A DNA stretch of 64,000 nt from Gammaproteobacteria bacterium. GTDB lineage: Bacteria > Pseudomonadota > Gammaproteobacteria > Pseudomonadales > Pseudohongiellaceae. A model generated the notes under the pieces. That model had not been told where the DNA came from. It saw only the letters and a list, made by a program, of their open reading frames with translations, and made no database searches. The stretch spans positions 1 to 64,000 of the forward strand of contig PBYU01000054.1 of assembly GCA_002730035.1 (NCBI GenBank), read 5' to 3'. Below, piece by piece: positions 2,997-27,866 of this stretch. Positions within the stretch are counted from its first letter, which is position 1; the number at the start of each line of letters is the position of its first letter. The translations under genes were made by a program, and so were the position numbers.

Positions 2997-3011
2997 GGTA
3001 ACGGTCGAAAA

Positions 3012-7218: not shown

Positions 7219-8748
7219 ATGCGATTTTTATTGGCTGCCTTAGCCTTCTGTTTTTCATGTGGCCTGCTGGCCGATTCGGTTGTATTGGATACTCCCCAGG
7301 GAGCACTTATTGGAGAAACCACCGGACCCGGCGATTCCGTCAGCGTTTTCAAGGGTATTCCCTTCGCCGCACCTCCCACCGGCAACAGACGCTGGCAACC
7401 ACCGGCCGATCCCAGCAATTGGGGAGGTGAACTGGTTGCGACGGCATTCGGGCCGAATTGTATGCAGGAGCCGTATGCGGAGAATTCATTTTTCTATCGT
7501 CCGGCACGCCTCACCAGTGAGGACTGTCTGTACCTAAATGTCTGGACTGCAGAAGAAGCCAATGCAGAACTGCCGGTCATGGTGTGGATTCACGGCGGTG
7601 CCTTGACCCGGGGCAGCGGTGCGACTGCGACTTACGATGGAACGAACCTGGCGCAGAAAGGCGTGGTACTGGTGACCATCAATTACCGGCTCGGTGTATT
7701 TGGATATTTCGCGCATCCGGAGTTGATCGATGAGTCGGGCAACAACGCCGCTGGAAACTATGGCGTGCTGGACCAGATCAAAGCCCTGCAATGGGTTCAG
7801 AGCAATATCGCTGCCTTCGGCGGCGACCCGGACAATGTGACGATCTTCGGCGAGTCAGCCGGTTCCTGGAGCGTGAATTTATTGGCGGCTTCGCCGCTGG
7901 CAAAAGGTTTGTTTCATAAAGCAATCGGAGAGAGCGGTGCCCGACTCGACCCTCGAATGACACTCGGCCAGGCTGCCAGCCAGGGAGCCAGCCTGGGCGA
8001 ATCCCTGAATGCTAATTCACTTCAGGCATTACGTGCTGTTCCGGCACTCGATTTACACAACGCGGCGGTAGAAACTCGTTTTCGCACCGATGGCATTGTC
8101 GACGGCTGGGTTATTCCAGATCAGCCTTTCAATCTTTTTTCCGAAGGCAAGCAGAACAAGGTGCCAGCTCTAATTGGTTATAATGCCGAGGAAGGCACCA
8201 CACTTGGAGCACTGAGTCGTATTCCCGAGAATGACGATGTGCACATTTCGCGCGCTAGAGAGATTTACGGTGACCTTGCAGACGAATACCTTCAGCTGTA
8301 TCCCGCCAGCGATCTGCGCAAATCGACGCTGGACGGATATCGTGATGGTGGCTTCGGCTGGAACTCGCTCACCTGGGTGCGGATGACTGCCAATGTCGAT
8401 GAAGACGCTTACCTCTATTTCTTCAGCCACCGCCCTCCGGGTCCCATGCAGGATGAGCTGGGTGCTTACCATGCTGCTGAAATAGCCTACGCATTTGATA
8501 ACACGCATACATTGCGCAACCCGGCCACCGCAGAGGATCGTCAGATCGCTGACATCATGTCCGACTACTGGGTAAATTTCGCCAGGACCGGCAATCCAAA
8601 TGGTACGGGACTACCGCAGTGGCAGCCCTATACGCGTGCCGATCCAAACTACGTGGAATTGAATGTAACCGCCCGACCTGATTCAGACCTCACTCCCGGG
8701 GCATGGGATCTATTTGACAAAGTAATGCAGCAACGCCGGCAACGATGA
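7219..8748 (+). CDS. Secreted type-B carboxylesterase
   Basis: Serine hydrolase of the carboxylesterase/cholinesterase alpha/beta-hydrolase family, expected to cleave carboxylic esters in the periplasm or outside. It has 509 residues with a Sec signal peptide (MRFLLAALAFCFSCGLLA). The oxyanion-hole HGG is near 125-127, the family motif EDCLYLNVW near 101-109, the nucleophile Ser in GESAGS near 211-216, the acidic partner probably in YNAEEGT, and the His in GAYHAAEIAYAF. The common GESAGG/GESAGA is GESAGS here, a tolerated variant. GAAGAGG before the ATG fits a ribosome-binding site. It stands alone in its orientation after the divergent efflux operon; natural substrate unknown. Confidence 0.92.
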   Translation: MRFLLAALAFCFSCGLLADSVVLDTPQGALIGETTGPGDSVSVFKGIPFAAPPTGNRRWQPPADPSNWGGELVATAFGPNCMQEPYAENSFFYRPARLTSEDCLYLNVWTAEEANAELPVMVWIHGGALTRGSGATATYDGTNLAQKGVVLVTINYRLGVFGYFAHPELIDESGNNAAGNYGVLDQIKALQWVQSNIAAFGGDPDNVTIFGESAGSWSVNLLAASPLAKGLFHKAIGESGARLDPRMTLGQAASQGASLGESLNANSLQALRAVPALDLHNAAVETRFRTDGIVDGWVIPDQPFNLFSEGKQNKVPALIGYNAEEGTTLGALSRIPENDDVHISRAREIYGDLADEYLQLYPASDLRKSTLDGYRDGGFGWNSLTWVRMTANVDEDAYLYFFSHRPPGPMQDELGAYHAAEIAYAFDNTHTLRNPATAEDRQIADIMSDYWVNFARTGNPNGTGLPQWQPYTRADPNYVELNVTARPDSDLTPGAWDLFDKVMQQRRQR

Positions 8749-8844
8749 GGGAACATGGGTACTAACTTACAAGGTCAACACATTCCTGGGTCAGCACGCC
8801 TTGATAGCAGAATTGGCTGTGGGCCAGAGTGGTCAACTACTTGT

Positions 8845-8858
8845 TCAGAGGGTCCTTA
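8845..8858 (-). repeat. Copy of a 14-bp motif TWRGGRYCCTCTGA (reverse orientation)
   Basis: Top strand TCAGAGGGTCCTTA, complement TAAGGACCCTCTGA. It matches 12 of 14 positions of the copy at 12963 and lies directly before the ATG at 8862. It may act as, or overlap, the ribosome-binding region (GAGGG). Function unknown. Confidence 0.35.
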
Positions 8859-8861
8859 GTC

Positions 8862-9878
8862 ATGAAATCACTGCCTCTATTTGTTGGTGGGATTATCGTA
8901 GGCGGTCTCAGTCTAATCACCTGGAACCTGCAATCCAGTAATTCACAATTGCAGGGTCAATTGGAGTCTGCCATAGGTTTTCGCGAACAGCTGAATGAGC
9001 AGGTAGAAGCGAACACTCGCTTGCGCATGGAATCCGAAGCCCAATTGGAGGAACTGCAGAGTCAAATACAGTCTGCTGCTATCCAGCTTTCCAATTTGAG
9101 CCAGGCCCTGCAGGAAGCGCGAGAGCAGACTGACCCTGACTACGAAGCCTTGCTGGAGCAGGCGCGACAGGAAGTCGCCCGCACTCGACCAGTGCGCAGA
9201 AGCGGCTCAAGCCCGCTGGCTATGTTCAGTGACCCCGATATGACCCGTTCACTGGCGCAGGCAGGTGTCGTGCTGTATAGCGATTATCTCGATTCTCTGG
9301 GTATCGGCTCTGCAAATCGGGAAACCATAGAAGATGCGTTAATTAACTATGCCGACTCGCGTTACCAGATGATGGGGCAACTGCTGTCTGGAGATCTGAC
9401 ACAGGAACAGGCCGCCGCCATATTCGGACCGGATGCGCTGTTGAGCAATCTTTCCAATGTACTGACCCAAGAGCAGAGTTCATTGCTGGGTGATTATGAT
9501 CTGATCGTACGGGAGGAGGCACTGCGGGAGCTGTATTCCAATTCCTTGCCAAATTCCGGCGGCAGTCTAAGCGGTGCGACTCAGGATCTGGTATTGGATG
9601 TACTAATGGATGAAGTGTTCTCCCAGGCCAATAACTACGGCGCCATTGTGGCAGCCGATGGCAGCATGACTACTGCAGTGGCGGATCGCAGCTTGGCTTT
9701 CAATCGTGCCAGAACACGGCTGCAAGACGACCTGGACGGGACACAATTGTCCCAGTATGACCAGTTCGTGGAGAATCAGAGCAATGCCGTCAATGTGGTA
9801 CTGGACGCGATTCCCGATGGAAATGGCCAGACAGCGATTAGAAATATGCGCGTCAGCGTGGATAATCTGCCAAACTAG
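8862..9878 (+). CDS. Membrane-anchored coiled-coil protein with two helical modules (paralogue A)
   Basis: No family recognised. It has 338 residues from the ATG at 8862 (a GTG at 8829 in the same frame is less likely). One N-terminal TM (PLFVGGIIVGGLSLITW) is followed by a Gln/Glu-rich coiled coil (about residues 25-105) and a soluble helical part expected in the periplasm. That part seems to hold two copies of one module: the first around YLDSLGIGSANRETIEDAL to EEALRELY with two LTQEQ sequences, the second from about TQDLVLDVLMDEVF to the end. The same architecture and module occur once in the gene at 19322-20158. LTxxQ sequences recall Spy/CpxP chaperones, but I would not assign that family. 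It precedes the M16 protease by 39 nt. Confidence 0.82.
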   Translation: MKSLPLFVGGIIVGGLSLITWNLQSSNSQLQGQLESAIGFREQLNEQVEANTRLRMESEAQLEELQSQIQSAAIQLSNLSQALQEAREQTDPDYEALLEQARQEVARTRPVRRSGSSPLAMFSDPDMTRSLAQAGVVLYSDYLDSLGIGSANRETIEDALINYADSRYQMMGQLLSGDLTQEQAAAIFGPDALLSNLSNVLTQEQSSLLGDYDLIVREEALRELYSNSLPNSGGSLSGATQDLVLDVLMDEVFSQANNYGAIVAADGSMTTAVADRSLAFNRARTRLQDDLDGTQLSQYDQFVENQSNAVNVVLDAIPDGNGQTAIRNMRVSVDNLPN

Positions 9879-9917
9879 GGATTATTAGCCCAGGATCACC
9901 AAATCAGGAGTTTCAAC

Positions 9918-12914
9918 ATGATTACCCGCTTCGTCAAAAGGCAATGGTACAGCGTTTTTCTTGCGCCGCTTTTAGTACTGGCACTGGCGGCCTGTAGTGA
10001 GCAATCGCCTTCCCAAGTATCTGTTGCTACTGAATCTGCCCAGACGGCGAGTACCCAGGCCGTCGAAGAAATGGTGGGTTACCGGCGCATCAATACGCCC
10101 AATGAGGAGGATCCGCTGGATGCTCACATCTACGAACTCGATAACGGGCTGCGGGTCTACCTTACTGAAAACCATGAAGAACCACGCTTTTATGCAGAGA
10201 TAGCAGTGCGCGCCGGCAGTAAACATGATCCGGCCGATGCCACGGGACTGGCTCACTATCTCGAACACCTGCTATTCAAGGGAAATCAGAATCTCGGCAC
10301 CCTGGATTACCAAGCCGAGCGCCCCCACCTGGACCGAATTGTTGAGCTTTATGAGGAACACTTCCTGGAAACCGACACAGCCAGGCGCGCCGAGATTTAC
10401 GCGGAAATCAACAGCGAGGCACAGCAAGCCGCCGAATACGCAGTTCCTAACGAGATCGACAAGCTCTATAACGGCATGGGTGGCACGGCACTGAATGCGC
10501 ACACCTCGTACGAAGAAACCGTTTACAAGGTAGGGCTGCCTTCCAACCGCCTGGAACAGTGGGCTGAAATCGAATCCAACCGCTTCGTTAATCCGGTATT
10601 CCGTCTATTTCATACCGAACTCGAAACGGTTTATGAAGAGAAGAACCGAACCCTGGACAACAGCGGTCGCATCATCGGCACCGCAGTCGATGAACTGATG
10701 TGGAAACAACATCCCTACGGGCAACAACCCACCATCGGCACGGTCGATCATCTGAAGAATCCTTCGCTGGTCTATATCAGGAACTACTTCGACACCTACT
10801 ATGTGCCCAACAATATGGGCATCTTCATGAGTGGGGATATCGATAGTGAAGCTACCATCGCACTGATCAGCGAGAAGTTTGCACACTGGGAATCCAAAGC
10901 TGTTGCTGACGTAGGCCCCTGGGTTGAACAACCGCTGCAGGGTGCTGAGCGTAGAACCGTACAATACCCCGGCCAGGAACAGGTACAGATCGCGTTTCGC
11001 ACCGCTGCCAATACAAGCAGTGAAAAGGAAGCGCTGATCATGGTGGATATGATTCTGGACAATCGCACTGCCGGACTTATCAATCTCAATCTGAATCAGC
11101 AACAGCTGGTGGCGGGTGCCGGTTCATCTCCGATGTTCCTGAATGATTACGGCGTGCAGCAACTGTATGGTGCGCCGAAGCGCGACCAGAGCCTGGAAGA
11201 GGTCGAGCAGCTCTTACTAGACCAGATCGAAATCATCAAGGCTGGAGATTTCGAAGACTGGATCATTCCGGCCATCATCAATGATTTCAAGAAGAATGAA
11301 AAAGCCAGTCAGGAATTTAATACGGCACGCGTCAGCGTGATGCGGACGGCGTTTATCGAAGGCGCGGAATGGGATCATCACATCGCCGAGATTCAGCGTA
11401 TGGAGCAGTTGACCAAGCAGGATGTCATCGATGCTGCAAACAAGTATTTCGGTGATGACTATGTTGCGGTGTATCGCGTGGACGCACAGCATGAAGTTCC
11501 TCCGGTTGAAAAACCCCAGATCTATCCAGTCACCATCGATCCTACCCGACAATCGGAATTTGCCAGGGCGGTGCTGGCCATGGACTATTCTGAGATAGAG
11601 CCGTCCTTCGTGGAAGTGGATAGCGACTATCGGGTGGTGGAATTCGCTGATGGGGTGGAACTGTATTATGCCCCGAATCCATTGAATGACCTGTTCACGC
11701 TCTCAATCAATGTAGAAGTCGGCACCGAAGAGAATGAGAAACTCGGCCTGTCCGCCGCACTGATGAACGTTGCCGGTACGCAGAACATGAGCAACGAAGA
11801 GTTGCAGAAAGAATGGTACCGCATGGGATCTGATTTTCGCTTTGGCTCCGGCGAAAACTCCTCAGCCATCGCCGTTTCAGGATTAGATGAACAATTTGAA
11901 AATTCCCTGCAACTGGCCATGGAACTGGTCAACACACCGGCTACCGATGAGCAGACGCTGGAACAGCTGAAGGGTATTCTGCTGAAATCACGGGAAGACC
12001 AGAAGAGTTCACCCCCCGCAATCGCCAGGGCGCTGAACATGTACAATCGCTATGGCGAAGAATCTCCAATGCTGGAAGCACTTAGCAGTGAAGAGATTAA
12101 CGACACCACGCTGGATGAATTATTGACGCTACCCTCAGATCTGTTGAACTATAAGCATACCCTTGCCTACACCGGTTCAATGCCCCTGGAAGATGTAGTG
12201 GAAGTCTTGCGACGTCATCACATCGTAGAGGGTGAGTTGCTGGATACTCCGGAGTATCGCTTCCGCCAGGCTCGCGAGGTTAGCAACACCGAATTACTGG
12301 TGGTCGATCAGCAAACTGCCCAGGCCCAGGTACGTATCGAGTTCGCCGATGGTGAGTTCTCCGAAGACGATAGTGTCATGTCTTCTATCTATACGAATTA
12401 CTTCGGCAGTGGAATGTCCAGCGTGGTATTCCAGGAACTACGCGAAGCGAGGGCGCTCGCCTACTCAGCCTCGGCGCGTTATTCTCAGGGCGGCAGGTTG
12501 AACGCCCAGAATATTATGTTGGGCGCCATAGGCACCCAGACCGATAAAACCGTCGATGCACTGGAAGCCTTTATCGATCTGATTGATAACATGCCTTCGT
12601 CTTCCGAGCGCTTCGATGAAGCGGTCAGCGCATCGCTCAATCGTTATCGAACTTCGAAACTGAATTTTCGTCAAGTCATCGGTGCAGTGCGAAGCTGGGA
12701 ACGACTGGGATTCGAAAGCGACCCGCGGCGCGCCCGATACCAGCAACTGCAAACCGCCAGCATGGAAGATCTGTTGGAGTTTCAACAACAACACGTGAAG
12801 GATCGTCCAAAACTGATTTCTATTGTGGGCGATCTTTCCATCATCGACACCGAGGAACTTGAACAGTTCGGTACGGTCGAAGAAGTTCAGGTTGACCAAT
12901 TGTTTGTCGACTAA
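9918..12914 (+). CDS. M16-family zinc peptidase lipoprotein (two-domain, pitrilysin/insulysin type)
   Basis: Probable envelope protease that degrades or processes peptides. It has 998 residues with an N-terminal lipobox ending at Cys26 (ALAAC). The inverted zinc motif HxxEH is HYLEH at about 113-117, and the distal zinc Glu is expected in ELETVYEEKN about 80-100 residues on. The N-terminal half is the active M16 domain; the C-terminal half (from about residue 560) is the inactive M16_C pair, as in other fused two-domain members. GGAG precedes the ATG. The upstream neighbour is coiled-coil paralogue A; a strong hairpin follows the stop codon and separates it from the ABC gene cluster. Confidence 0.93.
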   Translation: MITRFVKRQWYSVFLAPLLVLALAACSEQSPSQVSVATESAQTASTQAVEEMVGYRRINTPNEEDPLDAHIYELDNGLRVYLTENHEEPRFYAEIAVRAGSKHDPADATGLAHYLEHLLFKGNQNLGTLDYQAERPHLDRIVELYEEHFLETDTARRAEIYAEINSEAQQAAEYAVPNEIDKLYNGMGGTALNAHTSYEETVYKVGLPSNRLEQWAEIESNRFVNPVFRLFHTELETVYEEKNRTLDNSGRIIGTAVDELMWKQHPYGQQPTIGTVDHLKNPSLVYIRNYFDTYYVPNNMGIFMSGDIDSEATIALISEKFAHWESKAVADVGPWVEQPLQGAERRTVQYPGQEQVQIAFRTAANTSSEKEALIMVDMILDNRTAGLINLNLNQQQLVAGAGSSPMFLNDYGVQQLYGAPKRDQSLEEVEQLLLDQIEIIKAGDFEDWIIPAIINDFKKNEKASQEFNTARVSVMRTAFIEGAEWDHHIAEIQRMEQLTKQDVIDAANKYFGDDYVAVYRVDAQHEVPPVEKPQIYPVTIDPTRQSEFARAVLAMDYSEIEPSFVEVDSDYRVVEFADGVELYYAPNPLNDLFTLSINVEVGTEENEKLGLSAALMNVAGTQNMSNEELQKEWYRMGSDFRFGSGENSSAIAVSGLDEQFENSLQLAMELVNTPATDEQTLEQLKGILLKSREDQKSSPPAIARALNMYNRYGEESPMLEALSSEEINDTTLDELLTLPSDLLNYKHTLAYTGSMPLEDVVEVLRRHHIVEGELLDTPEYRFRQAREVSNTELLVVDQQTAQAQVRIEFADGEFSEDDSVMSSIYTNYFGSGMSSVVFQELREARALAYSASARYSQGGRLNAQNIMLGAIGTQTDKTVDALEAFIDLIDNMPSSSERFDEAVSASLNRYRTSKLNFRQVIGAVRSWERLGFESDPRRARYQQLQTASMEDLLEFQQQHVKDRPKLISIVGDLSIIDTEELEQFGTVEEVQVDQLFVD

Positions 12915-12919
12915 GAGTC

Positions 12920-12954
12920 ATTGCCCGGCGGCTGAAGTGCAGCCGCCGGGCAAT
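12920..12954. terminator. Strong 15-bp hairpin after the M16 gene (no T-tract)
   Basis: ATTGCCCGGCGGCTG at 12920-12934 pairs perfectly with CAGCCGCCGGGCAAT at 12940-12954 around a 5-nt loop, starting 5 nt after the stop codon. No run of T follows, so it may be a 3'-end stabiliser, a Rho-assisted or bidirectional stop, or a REP-like element rather than a classical intrinsic terminator. Confidence 0.7.
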
Positions 12955-12962
12955 ACCTGGAG

Positions 12963-13010: not shown

Positions 13011-13937
13011 ATGAGTACCAGCAACGGTGCAGTCGCTCTTTCTATTTCCGGACTCAATAAAAGCTACGGCGATTTCGAAGTCATCAGCAATCTGGATCTG
13101 CAAATCCAGCGCGGGTCAATTCATGGCCTGGTAGGCCTGAACGGTTCCGGCAAGACCACCACACTCGAATGCATCCTGGGCTTGCAATCCTTTAACAGTG
13201 GTTCCATTACGATACTCGATAAGCAACCCAGCGACTTGCATCTCGCCCGAGGCCGTATCGTCGGTATCTTTGACACACCCAGCCTGCACCCCAACCTGAC
13301 AGTTCGACAATGTTTGCAACATGCCCGCCTGCTTTGTGATGAGCCAACTCGCACATCAGAGCAGGTCGAACAATTGCTGGGGATAGATCGTTTCAAGGAT
13401 TTCAAAATCAGGCATCTGTCACTGGGCAACAAGCGACGTGCTTCTATTGCCCAGGCCTTACTGGGAAGTCCAGAACTGATCGTACTGGATGAACCCTTTA
13501 GTGGTTTGGATGCCGAGGGCGTCGATGACGTGTTACAACTCATCACCCATCTGAATCGTGCAGAAGGAACTGCTTTTCTACTGTCCAGCCACCAACTACC
13601 TTACCTGGAACAGATCTGCAGTCATATCGCAATCTTGCACAAGGGGAGCATTGCTGTCAGTGATGCCATTGCCGAACTGCTGAAGAGCACGGGCACGGAA
13701 ATACTGCTGCGAACGCCTCAGGCAGACGCGGCCATCACCTCTATCGACGGGATTGCAACGGCTCAATACAGCCATACAGACGAAAGTGACTATTTACACG
13801 TGCAACTCGGCGCAATGGATTCTGCCGAACTCAATCGCAGACTGGTAGCCGATGCCATCGCTGTCTCAGAAATGATCTTGCAACGCGGTTCTCTTGGAAA
13901 ATTGTTCCGTGAGATTACCCATGAGGTAGCCCCATGA
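13011..13937 (+). CDS. ABC-2-type transporter ATP-binding protein
   Basis: Cytoplasmic ATPase, 308 residues, of the family that pairs with ABC-2 permeases (CcmA/DrrA-like). Walker A GLNGSGKTT is near 42-50 and Walker B LIVLDEPFSGLD near 156-167. The signature reads LSLGN near 136-140 instead of LSGGQ, a variant seen in export ATPases of this type. The roughly 90-residue C-terminal extension after the H-loop (SSHQ) is typical of DrrA-like proteins. No good ribosome-binding site precedes the ATG. It opens a seven-gene plus-strand run with short gaps and start/stop overlaps; its stop overlaps the permease start (ATGA at 13934-13937). Confidence 0.93.
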   Translation: MSTSNGAVALSISGLNKSYGDFEVISNLDLQIQRGSIHGLVGLNGSGKTTTLECILGLQSFNSGSITILDKQPSDLHLARGRIVGIFDTPSLHPNLTVRQCLQHARLLCDEPTRTSEQVEQLLGIDRFKDFKIRHLSLGNKRRASIAQALLGSPELIVLDEPFSGLDAEGVDDVLQLITHLNRAEGTAFLLSSHQLPYLEQICSHIAILHKGSIAVSDAIAELLKSTGTEILLRTPQADAAITSIDGIATAQYSHTDESDYLHVQLGAMDSAELNRRLVADAIAVSEMILQRGSLGKLFREITHEVAP

Positions 13938-14791
13938 ATGGTTTACTGACAGCAATGAAGTGCGAGGTCTTTGTAGCCCTACGCACATTTTCCAGTAAGC
14001 TAATAGTGTTGACTCCCGCTTTAGTTGTCCTCTTTCAATTCCTCCTTTTAAGGATGACCGAAGCTGGACAATCAGCCAGAGATAACTTGTTAGGCAATAA
14101 TAGCTTTGAGGATGTTGTAGCGAACAATGCCTATGGCTACTTTGTGGACGGGCTCAGCACCGGCCTTACCATGCTCGGACTGTTAATGGTCGCACAGGCT
14201 TCTTACAGTTTTAGTTTCGATCGAGATACCGGAGCAGCGAGGCATCTTTTGATCAGGCGCGTGAGTCGCAGCAGCCTGATCACCGCGAAACTGATTCATC
14301 TGCATATTCTAGCTAGCCTATCTGTGTTGCTACTGATTGCTGTGAGCTACCTGATGAGTGAGCTGTTCTGGGATTTCGGGGCTATTGTAGAAGACGGATT
14401 TGAACTCATTGGCGAAAATGAAATTCGCGCTGAAATCGCCGCTGGGCTGCGCCTCGCACTGATTCCGCTGCCCGCGGCAATTGGCTTCGGTATTTTTATC
14501 TCAGTGTGTGCACAATCTGCTACTCAGGCGGTCACTACTGCATTGGGAATAACCCTGGCCATCGATATTTTTAAGACCATGCTGGGGGATATTGCGTATT
14601 ATCTGTATGCAAGCTTTCAACCCTCGCTAATCGATCAGTCCTATCTTCAGGATGTGAGCCGATTGGTGAGGGGTTACTCGGATGTTCTGAACGCCGAACG
14701 AGTGCTTGAACTCAATACCTGGGTACCACTTCCAACTCTGGTGTTGTTCTTCATCGCAACACTGTGGCTGCTTAAACGAAAGAAAATGTGA
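13934..14791 (+). CDS. ABC-2-type transporter permease
   Basis: Integral inner-membrane partner of the preceding ATPase, 285 residues, about six TMs: around residues 18-38 (FSSKLIVLTPALVVLFQFLL), 68-88, 110-135 (LIHLHILASLSVLLLIAVSYL), 172-195, 205-220, and a last one just before the C-terminus (TLVLFFIATLWLLKRKKM). The large loop after TM1 and the position of the conserved FDRDTG segment fit ABC-2 permeases such as NosY or the bacitracin type. It is translationally coupled to the ATPase by a 4-nt overlap and followed one base later by the PDZ lipoprotein gene. Cargo unknown. Confidence 0.88.
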   Translation: MNGLLTAMKCEVFVALRTFSSKLIVLTPALVVLFQFLLLRMTEAGQSARDNLLGNNSFEDVVANNAYGYFVDGLSTGLTMLGLLMVAQASYSFSFDRDTGAARHLLIRRVSRSSLITAKLIHLHILASLSVLLLIAVSYLMSELFWDFGAIVEDGFELIGENEIRAEIAAGLRLALIPLPAAIGFGIFISVCAQSATQAVTTALGITLAIDIFKTMLGDIAYYLYASFQPSLIDQSYLQDVSRLVRGYSDVLNAERVLELNTWVPLPTLVLFFIATLWLLKRKKM

Positions 14792-14792
14792 C

Positions 14793-15776
14793 ATGGCGAA
14801 CGCACTAAAAATGAATATAGAACTACGCTTATTCAAATCAGCTTCATTGCTAACGGCGACCCTGCTGGCCGGCTGTATCAGTTATGATTCGGCCATACTG
14901 GCTCCCTCCCTTACCATGTCTGCAGAAGACATCATCCTCAATGGCAGCCCCGAATCCACCAATGCACAACTCAATTTTGGCCTTACAGTCGCTCTTAATG
15001 AGAGTGACTCCCTGGTAAATATTGAAGTTCTCCCGGGTATTCGAGTGCGGGGCATAGATAGCAATGGGGCGGCAAATTCAGCCGGAATTCAAGTGGGGGA
15101 CGTGATTCTCTCGGTGAACGGTATGGACACAAACCATCCGGATGCCCTGGCGGCGTTGCAACAACAAAGTGGCGACGTCAGCGAATTTACCTTTATAGTA
15201 AGAAGAAACACCGTGGTATTCGAAGCACAGGTAGTTGCCAGAGCGGTGAATGGCAATGCCCCAGCCCGGGAATTGTACCGAATCGACCCACTGGCGACGC
15301 GGGCCGCTTATACTACGGAAATGCTAAGCCTTCGTGGGCAACCGAATATAGCGGTAGCGCGGGTTGTGGAACTGCTTCCTGGCAGCCCATTAGCGACGGC
15401 CGGAATTGGTGTGGGCGACCGGGTAATGGCCATGGATGGCGTTAATCTGAACTCGGCACAGGGTCTGATTACGCGGTTGAATCGAGACTACTCGCTCGGC
15501 GACCGGGTGCAGTTTTCCGTATTCGACGGGCAGGAGATAGAAACGATGATGGTGGACCTGTGGGACCCAGGTCGGCGCATAAGCCGGGTGAACCTGTGGC
15601 CGATATTGCAATACGAGTCCTCATTGAATCCACCCAGAAACAGCTTATCGGTACTGGATTTCTGGTTGTTCGCGGTCTATAGCTATAGCCGGGTTGAAGG
15701 AGAACAAGCCCATAGCCTGTTGGGTATTTTTAACTTCACCAGCGACTATGGTGAACTGGTTGAGGAGCAAGATTAG
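14793..15776 (+). CDS. Tandem-PDZ lipoprotein without a protease domain
   Basis: Probable envelope scaffold or peptide-binding lipoprotein, 327 residues. The signal peptide ends in a lipobox (LLAGC, Cys near residue 29). Two PDZ domains follow: the first with NSAGIQVGDVILSVNG near 90-105, the second with ATAGIGVGDRVMAMDG near 195-210. No catalytic triad is present, so it is not a DegP/DegS-type protease. The C-terminal 60 residues have no family I know. The ATG at 14793 begins one base after the permease stop; a longer frame from 14706 is only the permease gene read in another frame. The place between an ABC pair and two propeller-like proteins suggests it tethers exported partners. Confidence 0.85.
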   Translation: MANALKMNIELRLFKSASLLTATLLAGCISYDSAILAPSLTMSAEDIILNGSPESTNAQLNFGLTVALNESDSLVNIEVLPGIRVRGIDSNGAANSAGIQVGDVILSVNGMDTNHPDALAALQQQSGDVSEFTFIVRRNTVVFEAQVVARAVNGNAPARELYRIDPLATRAAYTTEMLSLRGQPNIAVARVVELLPGSPLATAGIGVGDRVMAMDGVNLNSAQGLITRLNRDYSLGDRVQFSVFDGQEIETMMVDLWDPGRRISRVNLWPILQYESSLNPPRNSLSVLDFWLFAVYSYSRVEGEQAHSLLGIFNFTSDYGELVEEQD

Positions 15777-15787
15777 GGGTCCTCTGA
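15774..15787 (+). repeat. Copy of a 14-bp motif TWRGGRYCCTCTGA
   Basis: TAGGGGTCCTCTGA begins in the stop codon of the PDZ gene and ends 5 nt before the ATG at 15793. AGGGG may serve as the ribosome-binding site of the next gene. See the copies at 8845, 12963 and 24473. Confidence 0.35.
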
Positions 15788-15792
15788 TTCAA

Positions 15793-17355
15793 ATGCTGAA
15801 AAACAAAGTATCACAACTAAAATGTGTGGCTCTGCTCAGCGTATTCTGGGCAGGCAGCATCGCTTATGCCCAGAACAATTATGTAGCATTTGAGCTGCAA
15901 CGTGAAAACAACTGGGACTCGCTGATAACGGAAGATGTTAATGGTGATGGTGCCAATGACCTGGTGTTTTCCAGTTACACCGAGGGCATCGGACGTGAAT
16001 TGCATATCCACCATCAACAGGCGGATGGTACATTCGCCTCTTCTCCTAAACGAATCGAAATAAAGACTGAAATCATTGCGGTCGGCTTCGCCGATTTGCG
16101 ACCGGCTCCGGGCAAGGAATTGTTGTTACTGTCCAGCAACGGTATTTTCAGCCTGTCCACCGCGATTCAGGGCTACACCGGAAACATCCGGCAACTCCTG
16201 GAATGGGATCTAATTGCCGCGATTCCCGATCTGCAACAGCTGCAGTTCTTTAACGGCGTCGCCGACTTAAATGGGGATGGCAATGTCGATCTGTTGCTGC
16301 CCGGGGACAAGCAATACGGGTACTTCGCCGGGCTGGGAGATGAACGATTCGAACTGGTCTCCCTGTTTACTACCGTCAATGAGAATCTTCGAGCAGCACA
16401 ACGTGGCTCACAGGAATCCGAACTCACCGCCCAACTTAGCATCAATCCTGACAAAGGCGTGGTGATCCAGCTCAGTGCAAGCGCCCCTTCCCCGTTCAGG
16501 AATTTTATTGAAGCATGGGATGAGTCTTCCACAGAGCAAAGCAGTCTGCTGCGTTCTGAGCACTGGATGCCCACCGCAGTACTTGCCGAATTAAACCAGG
16601 ATGAGTTACTGGATATCGTTTATCTAAACGTGGCCGACGACGGGCTGGGACAGCTGAACATTCACTACCAGAGCATCGAATCCGGTTTCGCATCCACACC
16701 GGACTGGACGGGCTCGCTGGAAACCAGCGGCGATTTGCAACTGGTGGACATGGATAACGATGGACTGCTGGATCTGCTTCGACTGAGCGGAGACATCAAT
16801 GAATGGGACGCCCGATTCTATGTCAATCGTGATGGGGAATTCGATCTCCACCAGCCTGCCCAGGTGATGCGCTTCTCCGGATATGACTTGCGCCTGGATT
16901 TCATCAATGCTGAATCTACCAATGAGCCAGTTCTCAATGTGAGTTATTACACGATACCCGTGGTAGATGCCATCCGTAATGCCAGCATCAACCGCATTCA
17001 ATTGCTGTACGGCAGCGACCAGGCCGAAACCGGGCAACTCTTTAATCGGCGTCCCGATGCGCGACTGGAAGAGAGTTTCTCCGCCGCTAACGTGCGTGGA
17101 TTATCGGAGCAGATGTCACTGCATTACGACGTCGATGGTGATGGCAATAGAGACGCACTGTATATCACTGACAATGGCACCCTGGCCGCCAAAAAGATAG
17201 ATGCTGAGTTGCGTATCGCCGATGAGCCATTCTGGGAGTATGTCTCTCCTCGAACAGTATTCGAATTTGAAGTAATTGAGCTGAACAATGACGGCAACCC
17301 TGACCTGCTGTTACGCCATGGCACAACCACGACCGTATTGGTAGCTGCACCATGA
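15793..17355 (+). CDS. Exported VCBS/FG-GAP repeat protein 1 (predicted beta-propeller)
   Basis: Exported protein of 520 residues with a signal peptide cleaved after about SIAYA. It carries calcium-loop repeats of the FG-GAP/VCBS kind: DVNGDGANDLVF, DLNGDGNVDLLLPG, DMDNDGLLDLLRL, DVDGDGNRDALYI and ELNNDGNPDLLLRHG, spaced as blades of a propeller. Such proteins bind ligands or partners outside the inner membrane; enzymatic activity is not expected. I took the ATG at 15793 because the signal peptide begins there; the frame is open back to 15694 inside the PDZ gene. Its stop overlaps the next start (ATGA at 17352), so the two propeller genes are co-translated and similar in length. Confidence 0.86.
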   Translation: MLKNKVSQLKCVALLSVFWAGSIAYAQNNYVAFELQRENNWDSLITEDVNGDGANDLVFSSYTEGIGRELHIHHQQADGTFASSPKRIEIKTEIIAVGFADLRPAPGKELLLLSSNGIFSLSTAIQGYTGNIRQLLEWDLIAAIPDLQQLQFFNGVADLNGDGNVDLLLPGDKQYGYFAGLGDERFELVSLFTTVNENLRAAQRGSQESELTAQLSINPDKGVVIQLSASAPSPFRNFIEAWDESSTEQSSLLRSEHWMPTAVLAELNQDELLDIVYLNVADDGLGQLNIHYQSIESGFASTPDWTGSLETSGDLQLVDMDNDGLLDLLRLSGDINEWDARFYVNRDGEFDLHQPAQVMRFSGYDLRLDFINAESTNEPVLNVSYYTIPVVDAIRNASINRIQLLYGSDQAETGQLFNRRPDARLEESFSAANVRGLSEQMSLHYDVDGDGNRDALYITDNGTLAAKKIDAELRIADEPFWEYVSPRTVFEFEVIELNNDGNPDLLLRHGTTTTVLVAAP

Positions 17356-19013
17356 CTCTCTCGAAATCCACAACTCGCTGCACAATGCTGCTGACTCTCT
17401 ACGTCGGCTCGTCCTACGCAGCCAATACGGCAGACTACTCAAGCCAGCCCTTCGAATTGCCTGCTGAAAGTGAAATCCTCATCGTTGCCGACACCAATGG
17501 CGACGGGCTGAGGGAATTGATCACCGCTTTGGATGATAAAATCAGAGTCTATTTTCAAGCGACTGACGGTTTCGATTTCAATACCGGATTTCAGGAAATT
17601 GAATTACCTGGAGACGCAGTCGGCTGGGATATCAGTACCAATTACAGCCAGCAGGGCAACGCCTCCATCATTGCGTTAATCGATGGAGTTGAGGTGCTGG
17701 TCTGGCAGATGGAAGGGGACACCATTGGCCCACCCGAAACGATAATTTCCGGTTTGCCTGGATTTTTAAGTAAGGGCAGCAATCGTCTGCATTTTTCCCG
17801 CGATATAAACGGTGATGCCATTGAGGACCTGATCATACCCGGTGCCGGAAAGCTGCACCTCTATATAGCGAATGGCAATAGGGAATACCGAACCGGCTTA
17901 AGCATTAACTCAGAGTCCCGCCTGCGTACCAACCTTGATCCCGGTAATCTGGAACGGCGTACCGGGCAGGCGATCCGTATACCGATGATGGAATTGCGTG
18001 ACGTAAACAGCGATAGTTTCGACGACTTGATTTCCCGTACCGATGAGCGACTCGACGTATTCATAGCCAACCAGCAGGCCGAGGCGTATTTTCCTGCATC
18101 GCCTTCCTACACGCTGGATATTGCACAGATCGAAGAACGCCTCGGTGACTTCGATATCGATAACCTCGATTTTTCCAATCTAACCGGTTTACTCGCCTTG
18201 ACACACGAGGAAATTCTCGACGATGTCGATGGCGATGGCATCGAAGACTTACTCCTGAGGGAAGGCAGCAAAGTCTCTCTGTTTGGCGGCACACTGAATG
18301 GTATGGAACTGGAACAACCGAGGCAAGTGTTACGCTCCGGCGGCAACGTGCTTAGCACATTTCTCTACGATGAGAATGAGGACGGTCTGAAAGATCTGTG
18401 GCTGTGGCGCATAGAACCGATTTCCGTCGGCGACATTTTTGTGTGGCTGGCGCTGTCTGGTAGTGTCGCCATCGAAGCGTTCATCTATCCGAACGAAGGC
18501 GAAAGATTTTCGCGGCGACCGTCGCGCAAACTCACTGTAGAATTGAAGTTTCCTTCGGTTATTCGGCTCGCCACTTCTTTTCAGGGGCTGGTGGAAGAGG
18601 CCAGGGAAACCCAAAGCAGCGAAGTCATTCCAACCAGTGCGGCAAACATCGACAGTGACATTTCGAAGGCAGACTTGTTGGTGCTGATAAACAACCAGGT
18701 AAACGTCTTTCTAAATAGCATAGAGCCGGAAGAGTCCAACACTGACTTTCTTGAAGGACTGGATTACTCCCGCCAACGTGATAACTATGCAATTAATGTA
18801 CGTGAAATAATCGCTAACATCTCCATCAGTGAGAATCCCCAGTTAGCCCGTGTTGACGGACAGTCTGCTGACTTGATTTTCAATTTGGATACAGAAGTTG
18901 AAAATGGTGACATTATTCCGGTACTGCTGAACGACGATACGCTGGACGACGTATTTGTATTTACAGGGTACAGCAGTAGTCACATACAGGGAATACTGCT
19001 ACTCTCAAAATAG
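17352..19013 (+). CDS. Exported VCBS/FG-GAP repeat protein 2 (predicted beta-propeller)
   Basis: Second exported repeat protein, 553 residues, with a signal peptide (cleavage after about SSYAAN) and the same kind of Asp-rich loops: DTNGDGLRELI, DINGDAIEDLIIPG, DVNSDSFDDLI, DVDGDGIEDLLLREG and DENEDGLKDLWLW. It shares plan, order of loops and length with protein 1, which suggests duplication within the operon, though the sequences have diverged strongly. It overlaps the upstream gene by 4 nt and is followed after 60 nt by a small membrane protein gene. The ligand is not evident. Confidence 0.86.
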   Translation: MTLSKSTTRCTMLLTLYVGSSYAANTADYSSQPFELPAESEILIVADTNGDGLRELITALDDKIRVYFQATDGFDFNTGFQEIELPGDAVGWDISTNYSQQGNASIIALIDGVEVLVWQMEGDTIGPPETIISGLPGFLSKGSNRLHFSRDINGDAIEDLIIPGAGKLHLYIANGNREYRTGLSINSESRLRTNLDPGNLERRTGQAIRIPMMELRDVNSDSFDDLISRTDERLDVFIANQQAEAYFPASPSYTLDIAQIEERLGDFDIDNLDFSNLTGLLALTHEEILDDVDGDGIEDLLLREGSKVSLFGGTLNGMELEQPRQVLRSGGNVLSTFLYDENEDGLKDLWLWRIEPISVGDIFVWLALSGSVAIEAFIYPNEGERFSRRPSRKLTVELKFPSVIRLATSFQGLVEEARETQSSEVIPTSAANIDSDISKADLLVLINNQVNVFLNSIEPEESNTDFLEGLDYSRQRDNYAINVREIIANISISENPQLARVDGQSADLIFNLDTEVENGDIIPVLLNDDTLDDVFVFTGYSSSHIQGILLLSK

Positions 19014-19073
19014 ATCCCTTGGCTAGTTACAAGTAGCAGATGTGCTCGCTACAACTCGAAAGGCATTGAATTC

Positions 19074-19325
19074 ATGAGGAAGGTAGTCTGGACATCGTTT
19101 GGCGTTGCGCTGGTTCTGGTCAACCTTATCGCTGAAATTGCTGCGATCTACACCGGCGTCTTTGTAAGCATGTTTATACGCATCTCTATCATTATTGGCG
19201 TGACTACCGTAGCCATGATTTTTTATGGATCGATTGCCCTTGTAAATAACCTGGAAAAAGAAAAGCCATTATCCGGTCATGTAAGAGACACACTGGGTGA
19301 GGACAGGAAGAAGGACGGAGCATGA
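19074..19325 (+). CDS. Small two-TM membrane protein
   Basis: 83 residues, not recognised. Two TM segments are clear (about residues 8-30 and 34-56, the second IRISIIIGVTTVAMIFYGSIAL), followed by a charged tail (HVRDTLGEDRKKDG). The size and shape suit an accessory subunit or anchor for the ABC/propeller complex. Its stop overlaps the next start by ATGA at 19322, so it is made together with the coiled-coil protein. Confidence 0.75.
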   Translation: MRKVVWTSFGVALVLVNLIAEIAAIYTGVFVSMFIRISIIIGVTTVAMIFYGSIALVNNLEKEKPLSGHVRDTLGEDRKKDGA

Positions 19326-20158
19326 GACCCATAGCGATCGGCTCAACAATTCTAGTTATCGCTGCGAGTGCCACTCTATATAGCTTGCAGCGTGAAAACC
19401 GTCGCCACGAACAGCAGCTGGCAGACTACCAGCAGCATGTACAGGAACTGCTGACACAAGTTGAAGCCGGCAGTCGACAACGGATAGGGCTTCAAAACCA
19501 ACTCGACGACTTGTTGAGTGAAAGCAATACTCTCAATAGTCAACTAACTTCAGCCGAAGACCAGCTGGATGAAGCAGAGCAACAACTTAATCCCGACTAT
19601 CAGCGAATAGAATCTGAAATACGCCAGCAAATTAGCTATGAGCTTCAGCAACAGGAGATTGAGCGTAACAATATCGATCCACGCGTCAGTCTGCTGCAGG
19701 AGTTAATAGCACTCGACCCGCTCGAACTCGGTGAAATAATGTCAGTAAATGGCCAGTTCGGCAGATTTCTACAGGCATTGGGTGTAGATGATCAGCGTAT
19801 GGAAGCCATTGTAATTGCCTTGACTGATGTGGTGGCCGACCAGAATCTAGCACGCCAGGAACTAATGGTTCAGCTGCGCGAAGGTGACGTGGGCCGCCGC
19901 GAGATGCGATCCGAAATGCAGGAGATGATGAGTCCGCGTGCACAATATGAAACCCTTGCTCAAACCTTAACTGACAACGAATTGCTTATTTTTAGACAGG
20001 CACTCTCAGAACAACGAGAACAAACCAATGCCATACGAGACTTTACTCTGAATACCGGCGACTCTACCTCCTCCGCCGTTTTCTTCGGAGGCACCGGTCG
20101 CTCACCCGCAATTGTTCTGCCTGCCCAGCCAGCAACTCCCCTGAACCCGCGTAACTAG
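19322..20158 (+). CDS. Membrane-anchored coiled-coil protein with one helical module (paralogue B)
   Basis: 278 residues, family unknown. A short N-terminal TM (IAIGSTILVIAASATLYSL) is followed by a Gln-rich coiled coil (about residues 25-95) and then a helical module around FLQALGVDDQRMEAIVIAL to LSEQREQTNAIRDF. Plan and local sequence match paralogue A at 8862-9878: the junction NPDYQRIE versus DPDYEALL, and FLQALGVDD versus YLDSLGIGS with the same helix spacing behind. B has one module where A seems to have two. It ends the ABC/PDZ/VCBS run, and that pairing ties the protease-side and transporter-side genes together. Confidence 0.8.
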   Translation: MRPIAIGSTILVIAASATLYSLQRENRRHEQQLADYQQHVQELLTQVEAGSRQRIGLQNQLDDLLSESNTLNSQLTSAEDQLDEAEQQLNPDYQRIESEIRQQISYELQQQEIERNNIDPRVSLLQELIALDPLELGEIMSVNGQFGRFLQALGVDDQRMEAIVIALTDVVADQNLARQELMVQLREGDVGRREMRSEMQEMMSPRAQYETLAQTLTDNELLIFRQALSEQREQTNAIRDFTLNTGDSTSSAVFFGGTGRSPAIVLPAQPATPLNPRN

Positions 20159-20317
20159 TTAATTCTATTGAGTATTAGTTGGCCGGCTGCTGTTGCTGCC
20201 TGCCTGGTTCGTTTGTGATTTCCAGGGAAATATGCTTTCATCGTTGGCCATTGGAGACACTGAAGATATCGATAAGAATAACCAAGGAGCGTTCTCCCCG
20301 ATCGCCATGAATTGAAG

Positions 20318-21349
20318 ATGAACAAACTTGTAGTAGGCCTGCTTGTCGCGATTTTCCTGACTGCCTGTAGTGACGAACTCACCCGTGCCAGACCCTATGT
20401 ACTGACGACTGCCACCACCGGCGGGACTTACTATCCGGTAGGAGTCGCATTGGCGACCATCGCGCATGCCCAACTCTATGAAACCCGCGGCATATCCCTG
20501 ACTGCGATCAGTTCAGCCGGATCCCTGGAAAACGTTAAGCTACTCAGGGATAACCAGGCACAGTTCGCCATATTGCAGGGGCCGTTCGGAGCCTGGTCGT
20601 GGAATGGTGAGGGTCCCGTCAGTAATCCCCAGACTCATATCCGCAGCGTTAGCGCACTATGGAAGAATGTTGAACACTTCGTGTTGTTAACCGAACTCAC
20701 CGAGGCCGGTGACATCATGGACCTGGATAATCTCGATGGTGAACGCTATGTTCTCGGCGCTCGCAATTCAGGCGCAGAACAGACCGGGCGCTTCATCCTG
20801 GACACGCTGGGTATCGATTACGAGGAAAAGTTCAATCTTGCGTACATGGGATACGGACCCACCACCAGTGCTATTCAGGATGGCAATATTGTGGGGATGA
20901 ACATTCCCGCAGGCGCACCGGTGAGCTCTATTACACAGGCTTTTGCCTTACTCGGTGATCGTATGTCGATCCTCAACTGGACCGAGGAATCCATGAACAA
21001 GCTAAACACCAGGTATCCACTTTGGGACTGGTATGACTTTCCTCCTGGCACCTATCCTAATCAGACGGAGCACATCCGCACCATAGCTTCGCCCAACATA
21101 TTGGTGACTCGGGTCGATATACCCGAAGAAGTAGTTTATAACGTAACAAAAGTTATATGGGAAAACCTGGCGACTCTACAGGAAATTCATGGCGCCACTA
21201 AAGACATGCGATTGGAAATTGCAGTAGACGGACTCGGTGCTCCATTGCACCCCGGAGCACTGCGTTACTATCGAGAGGTCGGCCTGGAAATCCCTGCTCG
21301 ATTAATATTTAAAGAGCCCTCTGAACCACCAGCAGTAGCAGGAGTCTGA
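20318..21349 (+). CDS. TAXI-family TRAP transporter substrate-binding lipoprotein
   Basis: Extracytoplasmic solute receptor of a TRAP transporter, 343 residues, with a lipobox (FLTACS) near residue 18. The TAXI hallmark TGGTYYPVG appears right after the signal region, and VLGARNSGAEQTGRFILDTLGI is the second conserved segment. TAXI receptors commonly bind small organic acids such as glutamate or other carboxylates; the ligand cannot be read from sequence. I used the ATG at 20318; a TTG two codons earlier is possible, and an AAGGAG lies about 30 nt upstream. The fused permease follows after 9 nt. Confidence 0.92.
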   Translation: MNKLVVGLLVAIFLTACSDELTRARPYVLTTATTGGTYYPVGVALATIAHAQLYETRGISLTAISSAGSLENVKLLRDNQAQFAILQGPFGAWSWNGEGPVSNPQTHIRSVSALWKNVEHFVLLTELTEAGDIMDLDNLDGERYVLGARNSGAEQTGRFILDTLGIDYEEKFNLAYMGYGPTTSAIQDGNIVGMNIPAGAPVSSITQAFALLGDRMSILNWTEESMNKLNTRYPLWDWYDFPPGTYPNQTEHIRTIASPNILVTRVDIPEEVVYNVTKVIWENLATLQEIHGATKDMRLEIAVDGLGAPLHPGALRYYREVGLEIPARLIFKEPSEPPAVAGV

Positions 21350-21358
21350 TTAGAAACC

Positions 21359-23398
21359 ATGAAGTCAACGTATTTGAGATGGGCCGCCTTCTTCTTTGCC
21401 CTGTTCCATATCTATTGCAACATTTTTGCCAGCATCTCTGAACTGTGGCTCTCGGCTATCCACTTTGGTGGTTTTTGCGCTATTTGCGCATTGATGGCCA
21501 ACGAACATGAAGATTTGGACAGCACATCTATCAAATTCTGGATCAATATCGCTCTGGCGGGAATTGCCATTGCGACCTCCTGCTATCTGATCCTGTTTGA
21601 GAATGCACTCTATGCTCGTGAAACCGAGTATATCCTCAGTGACTATATTTTCTCCCTGATCGCCGTGGGTCTGGCCATTGAATTTACACGTCGCACCACT
21701 GGTTGGTTCATGCCCGTGCTGATTCTCGTGAGTCTCTCTTATATCCTGTTTCTGGGTCGTTATATCAGCGGCGTATTCGCGTTTCCCGGCCTCAGTCTGG
21801 AGACTGTGCTGTATCGCAGTTTCTTCACCAGCGAGGGCATGTTTGGCTTGACCGCTCAGATCTCTTCCACTTTTGTGTTCATGTTTATTATTTTCGGGTC
21901 GTTCCTGCTGCGCTCTGGTGCAGGAGATTTCATCGTACGGCTCGCGCAATGCCTGGCAGGACGATTCACCGGGGGTGCCGGGTTGGTTGCCGTAATCGGA
22001 TCGGGTTTGATGGGCTCTGTCTCTGGCTCTGCTGTGGCGAATACGGTGTCAACCGGCGTGATTACTATTCCGATGATGATGAAGTCTGGCTTCAAGGCCC
22101 AGTTTTCCGCCGGAGTCGTAGCAGCCGCCTCTACAGGCGGCGCGTTGATGCCACCGGTAATGGGGGCAGGTGCCTTTGTTTTAGCCAGTTACACCCAAAT
22201 TTCTTACCTGACCATTATTGCCGCCTCGACGTTGCCGGCAGTGCTGTATTTCCTGACGGTTTCCTATTTCGTGCGCATCGAGGCGAAACGCCTGGGCTTG
22301 AATCCAACTGCCGATGAGCATTCCGAGAAAGTCTCGGTGGTCTTGAAAGAAGGCTGGCATTTTATTATCCCGATGGTGGTTCTGGTATGGTTTCTCGTAT
22401 CGGGACGCACGCCGACAACTTCAGCAGCCTTCGCGATTCTGAGCGTTATCGCCGCTTCCTGGATATCGCCCAAGCCGATGCATTTGAATGACATCTTCGA
22501 CGCCGTGGTAGACGGTGTGAAAACCATGGTGTCCACTGCCTTGCTACTGGTTGCTGTGGGCATCATCATTAATGTCGTGACCACTACCGGGGTTGGCAAT
22601 GCGTTTTCTCTGATGATTGTTGAATGGGCTCAGGGCAACCTGTTAATTACGCTGATCCTGGTGGCATTGGCTTCACTGGTGCTGGGTATGGGGCTGCCGG
22701 TGACCGCTTCCTACATCGTGCTGGCCACCCTGTCGGCGCCGCTTATTTTCGACCTGATCACTCAGGCGCAGCTACTCGAAGCCTTGCAGGTCGGTGATCT
22801 TCCTTCTAACGTGACAGCCACTATCGGCTTATTCGGCGGCGATCCTGTCATTGCGCTGCAGGAGATGCCTCTGGAAATGAAGCAGTTAATCCGACAGGAG
22901 ATGTTGGAACCGGAATTGTTAACCGGTTTGTTGCTCAGCGCTCACCTGATTATCTTCTGGTTGTCACAGGATAGTAATGTCACTCCGCCGGTTTGCCTGG
23001 CTTCCTTCGCCGCAGCGGGAATCGCGGGTACGCGGCCAATGGCGACGGGGCTTACCAGCTGGATGGTGGCCAAGGGGCTGTATCTGGTCCCGGTGCTGTT
23101 CGCGTACTCTCCTTTAATCTCCGGTAGCTGGCCGGAGCGTATTGAAGTATTTATATGGGCGAGCATGGGCCTCTATGCCTTAGCAGGCATCCTGCAGTGG
23201 CATCTCGAAGCGAAGATAAATGTATTTATTGCGGCTGCCTTGTTGTTGAGCGCTGGCCTGCTCATGTGGACACCCCTGCCCATTTATTATCATCTGGTGG
23301 GCGCGACTATACTGGTTGCCATTGTCATAATGCAGAGTCGCCAGAATAAACCTCCGCTACCTGTAACCGAATCGACCCCCGGAGTAAATAATGACTGA
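21359..23398 (+). CDS. TRAP transporter fused permease (DctQM-type, TAXI system)
   Basis: Integral membrane symporter subunit, 679 residues, combining the small 4-TM and the large 12-TM parts in one chain, as TAXI systems usually do. Conserved DctM features are visible: GSGLMGSVSGSAVANTVSTG near residue 215, STGGALMPPVMGAGAFV near 255, GMGLPVTASYIVLATL near 445 and the late TPPVCLASFAAAGIAG near 540. Uptake is driven by the sodium or proton gradient. The last 8 nt overlap the start of the CurA-like gene, so the reductase was translated from the same message. Confidence 0.94.
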   Translation: MKSTYLRWAAFFFALFHIYCNIFASISELWLSAIHFGGFCAICALMANEHEDLDSTSIKFWINIALAGIAIATSCYLILFENALYARETEYILSDYIFSLIAVGLAIEFTRRTTGWFMPVLILVSLSYILFLGRYISGVFAFPGLSLETVLYRSFFTSEGMFGLTAQISSTFVFMFIIFGSFLLRSGAGDFIVRLAQCLAGRFTGGAGLVAVIGSGLMGSVSGSAVANTVSTGVITIPMMMKSGFKAQFSAGVVAAASTGGALMPPVMGAGAFVLASYTQISYLTIIAASTLPAVLYFLTVSYFVRIEAKRLGLNPTADEHSEKVSVVLKEGWHFIIPMVVLVWFLVSGRTPTTSAAFAILSVIAASWISPKPMHLNDIFDAVVDGVKTMVSTALLLVAVGIIINVVTTTGVGNAFSLMIVEWAQGNLLITLILVALASLVLGMGLPVTASYIVLATLSAPLIFDLITQAQLLEALQVGDLPSNVTATIGLFGGDPVIALQEMPLEMKQLIRQEMLEPELLTGLLLSAHLIIFWLSQDSNVTPPVCLASFAAAGIAGTRPMATGLTSWMVAKGLYLVPVLFAYSPLISGSWPERIEVFIWASMGLYALAGILQWHLEAKINVFIAAALLLSAGLLMWTPLPIYYHLVGATILVAIVIMQSRQNKPPLPVTESTPGVNND

Positions 23399-27803: not shown

Positions 27804-27866
27804 AGGGAAAACTTGAGAAAGCCTTAGCGTAGTTCCTGGTTTGACCACGAATCATCAATCGAAGTT

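Follow-up and report, generated by a model that had tools for sequence, protein, structure and literature searches.

Seven closely packed genes at positions 13011 to 20158 of contig PBYU01000054.1 (assembly GCA_002730035.1) raise the question of which of them belong together and what their products might do. The window, that is, the whole stretch of DNA analyzed, comprises 64,000 nucleotides of a draft genome (3.96 megabases, 107 contigs) of a gammaproteobacterium of the family Pseudohongiellaceae. The original prediction had treated the seven genes as one set encoding an envelope machine. We found that the conserved unit is five genes, encoding an ABC ATPase, an ABC-2 permease, a PDZ lipoprotein and two beta-propellers (VB1 and VB2), and not all seven; the five may encode an envelope machine that works like NosDFY-NosL, a reading that we hold tentatively. 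The genes are as follows (aa, amino acids; TM, transmembrane).

13011..13937, + strand: ABC ATPase, core gene 1, 308 aa (Pfam ABC_tran, NosF-type structure match, invariant motifs)
13934..14791, + strand: ABC-2 permease, core gene 2, 285 aa (Pfam ABC2_membrane_2; ATGA overlap with the ATPase gene)
14793..15776, + strand: tandem-PDZ lipoprotein, core gene 3, 327 aa (Pfam PDZ, lipobox, AlphaFold2)
15793..17355, + strand: VB1, exported FG-GAP beta-propeller, core gene 4, 520 aa (Pfam FG-GAP_3)
17352..19013, + strand: VB2, exported FG-GAP beta-propeller and VB1 paralogue, core gene 5, 553 aa (Pfam FG-GAP_3; ATGA overlap with VB1)
19074..19325, + strand: small two-TM protein, accessory, 83 aa (hydropathy, locus counts)
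19322..20158, + strand: TM-anchored coiled-coil protein, accessory and often absent, 278 aa (hydropathy, locus counts)

The layout was as originally described, with all seven open reading frames (ORFs) on the + strand and ATGA overlaps at 13934, 17352 and 19322 seen by direct reading of the sequence, and the domain identities assigned earlier agreed with Pfam and hydropathy. The most likely start codons are ATG 14793 for the PDZ gene and ATG 15793 for VB1, rather than the TTG lying upstream in each case. By hydropathy, the 83-aa protein has two TM segments and the coiled-coil protein a single N-terminal one; neither had any Pfam match above the curated cutoff.

Genome searches were made on samples of each taxonomic group. 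Among 97 genomes searched, the PDZ lipoprotein had a strong match in 57 of the 60 that belong to the window's genus (the window's own not counted) and no such match in the 36 drawn from other families of the order. When 390 genomes of the order were sampled, 15 carried VB1 (the window's own, 7 more of the same genus, 5 of a sister genus and 2 of a second family), corresponding to 5/6 sampled sister-genus genomes and 0/3 of a third genus. The PDZ protein was found in the same 15 genomes, plus one HtrA-sized match. Across the class, VB1 was found in 1/369 genomes, which was the window's own. All 40 loci fetched from the genus carried the order M16 peptidase-ATPase-permease-PDZ-VB1-VB2 on one strand; the M16 gene and the five core genes were likewise present in 5/5 sister-genus loci, and the five core genes were present in 2/2 second-family loci with different flanks, where no M16 gene adjoined them. 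Gene starts in relatives were assigned by script, and with gap and overlap sizes therefore approximate, a 4-base ATPase-permease overlap was observed in 33/40 genus loci and a VB1-VB2 overlap in 32/40. In two loci a gene match was split into two pieces (permease and VB1 in L043; ATPase in L057). The ordered five-gene neighborhood named in the original prediction was thus recovered in every one of these loci.

The remaining two genes varied by lineage. The two-TM gene was present in 38/40 genus loci and 2/5 sister-genus loci and was not found in the two second-family loci. The coiled-coil gene followed the two-TM gene in only 13/40 genus loci and therefore falls outside the core. A machine of all seven genes, the coiled-coil protein serving as its periplasmic rod, would be in keeping with the tight coupling of the seven genes in the window and with those 13 loci, but the gene was missing from this position in the other 27 and was not detected next to the core in either of the two second-family loci. 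We regard such a machine as very improbable, and the periplasm-spanning rod proposed at the outset did not hold up. A plasmid-borne set was also rejected, with neither the permease nor VB1 matched in 72,556 plasmid records; the ATPase query, which matched at least 5000 plasmid records at <60% identity, was uninformative.

The set recurs in a second phylum. A propeller match at an E value of 1e-15 or better was obtained in 74 of 199 Planctomycetota genomes, and from these 74 the 40 best or near-best loci were fetched. The PDZ gene lay immediately 5' of VB1 in 33 of the 40. VB2 followed VB1 in 31 of those 33 (at L198 and L203 the contig ends), and the ATPase and permease lay upstream in 27; in five of the six PDZ-VB1 loci without ABC genes (L180, L181, L184, L188 and L190), the contig ended within ~1.1 kilobases (kb) of the PDZ gene. 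One of the seven PDZ-less loci (L201) begins inside VB1. In many Planctomycetota loci, the ATPase and permease form a single ORF of ~610 to 680 residues or more, the second half of which is matched by the permease profile; the clade with this arrangement includes L177, L178, L179, L186, L187, L193, L194, L205, L207 and others. A contig titled Candidatus Kuenenia stuttgartiensis holds an ATPase-permease ORF and the PDZ lipoprotein gene, then runs out within VB1; another Planctomycetota contig starts within the last part of the PDZ gene and continues with VB1 and VB2. Among non-core neighbors of the Planctomycetota loci, no cluster recurred in more than 5/31 loci. Since the gene order is fixed across two phyla, joint function is strongly indicated.

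A joint tree of 48 VB1 and 46 VB2 proteins, built by a quick method, placed VB1 and VB2 in two separate clades (support of 100 each). Because each clade spans both phyla, the duplication that produced the propellers predates the spread of the set, and VB1 and VB2 are an old paralogous pair. The Pseudomonadales rows grouped with the same twelve Planctomycetota loci in both halves of the tree (support of 98 for VB1 and 97 for VB2). Trees of the ATPase (40 rows) and the PDZ protein (45 rows), for which the clade lists were drawn up after the VB tree, repeated this division (100/99 and 100/98, respectively). The Pseudomonadales rows fell on one side of a branch in every case, with support of 100/99 for both the ATPase and the PDZ protein, 100 for VB1 and 90 for VB2. 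The same deep split in all four trees indicates that the set has moved or descended as a unit; the trees are unrooted and fit either direction.

The ATPase matched Pfam ABC_tran (1.2e-27), and its Walker A (GLNGSGKTT), signature (LSLGN) and Walker B (LIVLDEP) motifs are intact and were invariant in the alignment of relatives. The nearest solved bacterial chain shown for it was NosF (E value of 2.5e-46, profile positions 8 to 302, the whole length). The permease, encoded beside it, matched ABC2_membrane_2 (PF12679; 1e-8, 35.3 bits versus a cutoff of 27.2), as did the permeases of other loci (L176, 33.3; L196, 35.0; L194, 48.0; L100, 32.7), and an alignment of 29 rows had a mean column identity of 67%. 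No relative of the permease profile was found among solved structures, and in Pfam the protein matched ABC2 families only.

VB1 and VB2 matched FG-GAP_3 at 5.8e-16 and 4e-11, respectively, and contain four and five loose DxNxDGxxD-type motifs, compared to 0.25 and 0.38 in shuffled sequence. Their profiles match each other at 99.7%. Both carry a helix-strand-FxRRP insert; in VB2, the insert alignment places a hydrophobic helix at ~356 to 374, followed by FxRRP. The closest folds to VB1 were sugar-binding fungal lectins, and a search of solved structures with the VB1 profile found no relative. Compared to integrin-alpha-like FG-GAP propellers and PVL-type lectins, VB1 and VB2 differ in being a bacterial tandem pair with this insert and a genetic tie to an ABC transporter. 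Named relatives of VB1 include a protein of Pseudohongiella sp. (Pseudohongiellaceae, Pseudomonadales).

A rival reading is a conventional exporter, in which a lipid, glycolipid or peptide would be extruded by the ABC-2 pair, and the role of the PDZ lipoprotein and propellers would be only to receive this cargo or convey it to the outer membrane or surface. ABCA lipid exporters are among the best solved-chain matches of the ATPase, PF12679 is a general exporter family, the lectin folds closest to VB1 bind sugars, and an M16 peptidase gene lies upstream in 45/45 loci of the window's family, as would be expected near a peptide. However, genes for a precursor peptide, a glycosyltransferase or a lipid enzyme are not among the recurring neighbors of the core (the largest recurring neighbor being found in 5/31 loci), the set has no membrane-fusion or outer-membrane channel protein, and a propeller fold in common with lectins reveals no ligand. 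We consider a conventional exporter possible but doubtful.

The PDZ protein (Pfam PDZ, 1.4e-14, two stretches) has a single cysteine, Cys28, within the lipobox LLAGC, and this cysteine was invariant in 19/19 aligned rows spanning both phyla. An AlphaFold2 model with a mean predicted local distance difference test score of 89.4 gave PDZ domains at ~57 to 155 and ~161 to 258, followed by a C-terminal six-strand beta domain at 261 to 318. The first PDZ domain was best matched by PDZ domains from DegS and other HtrA proteins, some with peptides in the solved structure, and the profile search agreed. When the C-terminal domain was sought in a fold search with the PDZ protein, all of the matches listed fell in PDZ domains. 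Outside the lineage, PDZ profile matches were obtained in 43/368 other genomes of the class (best, 56.5 bits), in 33/89 other genomes of the phylum (best, 98.6 bits) and in 50/80 genomes of the phylum of a record titled Acidobacteria (best, 103.9 bits), with the listed ranges ending before, or barely touching, the C-terminal domain. Nine such loci were inspected, and neither propeller nor core ABC genes lay within ~1.5 kb of any of them.

The PDZ domains thus resemble those of HtrA, DegS and DegP, but the window protein lacks the trypsin-like protease domain by Pfam and has a lipobox and the C-terminal beta domain instead; identity as an HtrA protease was rejected. The resemblance, together with a lipobox that puts the protein at a membrane, is what speaks for a role in assembly or quality control of envelope proteins, in which the PDZ domains would bind the C termini of outer-membrane or secreted proteins, the propellers would hold them and the ABC pair would supply power. 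Against this, none of the five proteins has a protease or chaperone domain by Pfam. In addition, the VB1 counts given above (15/390 and 1/369) mean that most sampled relatives do not have the system, and it is therefore no general pathway. A role of this kind is quite unlikely in our estimation.

The known system that the core most resembles is NosDFY with NosL, the copper machinery of nitrous oxide reductase, in which a periplasmic solenoid of its own and a chaperone lipoprotein are served by an ABC-2 pair. The window set has a NosF-type ATPase, with a profile match of 99.9% and 33% identity over 238 residues to NosF of the S. meliloti pSymA operon (L226), and in both cases one ABC pair, a dedicated periplasmic protein and a lipoprotein are encoded in a single operon with overlapping genes. 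The permease and NosY both score above the PF12679 cutoff (35.3 and 207.8 bits, respectively), but did not match significantly in direct comparison (below). The outer parts differ: NosD is a beta-helix (PF05048) and NosL belongs to PF05573, whereas the window has propellers and a PDZ lipoprotein. The five-gene set is not a member of the NosDFY-NosL system.

We tentatively favor the reading that the genes at 13011 to 19013 encode one envelope machine that may work in the manner of NosDFY-NosL with different outer parts. An envelope role, as originally proposed, fits the lipobox, the signal-peptide-like N termini and the ABC-2 permease. The ATPase and permease would make up an inner-membrane transporter resembling type V, with the PDZ lipoprotein at the outer membrane facing the periplasm and VB1 and VB2 as periplasmic or surface propellers, probably stabilized by calcium and perhaps docked as a pair via their helix-strand-FxRRP inserts. 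ATP hydrolysis might pass a small cargo to the outer complex or drive its conformational change, and the PDZ domains could present a client via the client's C terminus. In a bolder version, which we think unlikely, the ABC-2 motor would not export a substrate and would mechanically work the outer-membrane PDZ lipoprotein and an integrin-like propeller heterodimer, assembling or presenting a client protein; this would be an ancient class of energized envelope machine, so far undescribed, that Planctomycetota have in common with a lineage of marine gammaproteobacteria.

Several observations weigh against a NosDFY-like machine. Human ABCA3, a lipid exporter, outscores NosF among solved chains matching the ATPase. 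Shared membership of PF12679 gives weak support because direct comparison of the permease with NosY by hhalign was not significant (2.6%). The VB1 profile matched NosD at only 4.4% and the PDZ profile matched NosL at 4.7%, and the scanned window proteins had no Pfam match to NosD (VB2 was compared by Pfam only) or NosL. At L200, the PDZ, VB1 and VB2 genes stand without any ABC gene in 20 kb of sequence. Of the PDZ-less loci, three (L212, L213 and L215) have ABC genes and two tandem propellers, and three (L209, L211 and L214) have propellers with no core ABC gene; the first three, in which an ABC-2 permease gene accompanies the tandem FG-GAP genes, are possibly a cousin system. Finally, rate covariation, computed on the 28 of 41 rows with all nine genes, was 0.38 to 0.75 among the five core genes and highest for VB1-VB2, but the M16 gene also covaried with the core (0.36 to 0.66), as did the TAXI and TRAP genes downstream in part, and the measure therefore discriminates poorly. 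These unclean controls and the PDZ-less and ABC-less loci are also what could be said for chance neighbors or a passenger operon without joint function. Order and strand are nevertheless kept in two phyla with unrelated flanks, and the deep splits of four gene trees are congruent, which makes mere adjacency extremely improbable.

According to the original prediction, no described system with this set is known, and this stands: Pfam, NCBIfam and PADLOC name domains only, and a literature search found no description of the five-gene set or its lineage, most subscription journals lying outside its coverage. The best NCBIfam match of the ATPase was to lantibiotic protection transporters, an identity that the original prediction had named as counting against it; this was rejected, with 134.6 bits versus a cutoff of 309.75 (TIGR03740) for the ATPase and 22.7 versus 145.2 (TIGR03732) for the permease. 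In clusters for pyrroloquinoline quinone (PQQ) alcohol dehydrogenases, an ABC-2 transporter is paired with a beta-propeller protein. The window set resembles these PedABC-type clusters but differs in its FG-GAP propellers and PDZ lipoprotein, and a PQQ/PedABC transporter was rejected at 118.7 bits versus 302.25 (TIGR03864, ATPase) and 22.3 versus 241.35 (TIGR03861, permease). A LolCDE or MacB type was rejected since the permease has no FtsX or MacB periplasmic core domain in Pfam, and tripartite efflux or type 1 secretion since Pfam found no membrane-fusion protein or outer-membrane channel among the seven proteins. An anti-phage defense system was likewise rejected, as PADLOC gave generic ATPase matches for the ATPase and none for the other seven proteins scanned. 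In one anammox report, FG-GAP and ABC genes adjoin hydrazine-synthase homologues, not this set (PMC12758564).

Two further genes lie upstream of the core.

9918..12914, + strand: M16 (insulinase-type) peptidase, family-specific neighbor (Pfam M16, HYLEH motif, lipobox-like N terminus)
8862..9878, + strand: second coiled-coil protein, variable neighbor, paralogue of 19322..20158 (sequence match)

The two coiled-coil proteins share 27% identity (E value of 9.3e-9), and that at 8862 to 9878 had a tblastn match in 20/40 genus loci. A dispersed repeat of ~100 bases lies immediately 5' of its gene (8761 to 8864), with at least 30 other whole or partial copies in the genome at 80 to 94% identity, scoring having covered 40 of 84 candidates. 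The repeat encloses the GTG start at 8829, and the likely start is ATG 8862. Positions 8000 to 10473 are 100% identical to positions 107 to 2580 of another contig (C37) of the same assembly, pointing to redundant or overlapping contigs. Between the M16 and ATPase genes is a perfect 15-base-pair hairpin (12920 to 12955) without a T run; comparable strong hairpins occur in this gap in L032, L039 and L046 and not in L034 or L060. Downstream, a TAXI-type solute-binding protein and a TRAP permease are encoded at 20312 to 23398, and these genes were present in 36/40 and 35/40 genus loci, respectively. On the - strand, opposite to the core, 911 to 6831 encode a MacAB/TolC-like tripartite efflux set (MacB-like permease, ABC ATPase, HlyD-like protein and outer-membrane efflux protein), and adjoining DUF2937 and DUF2333 genes occupy 27258 to 28931.

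Proteins of this set have so far carried general names. The propellers, commonly annotated merely as "VCBS repeat-containing protein," are members of one old paralogous pair, and among the 120 of 180 PDZ relatives listed, those from Planctomycetota with a named organism bear the label "PDZ domain-containing protein" or "hypothetical protein." If the NosDFY-like reading is true, a PDZ lipoprotein with a propeller pair would be a new layout among the few ABC-2 transporters that serve periplasmic partners, and experimental work on cultured Pseudohongiella or planctomycetes would have a precisely defined target of five genes.

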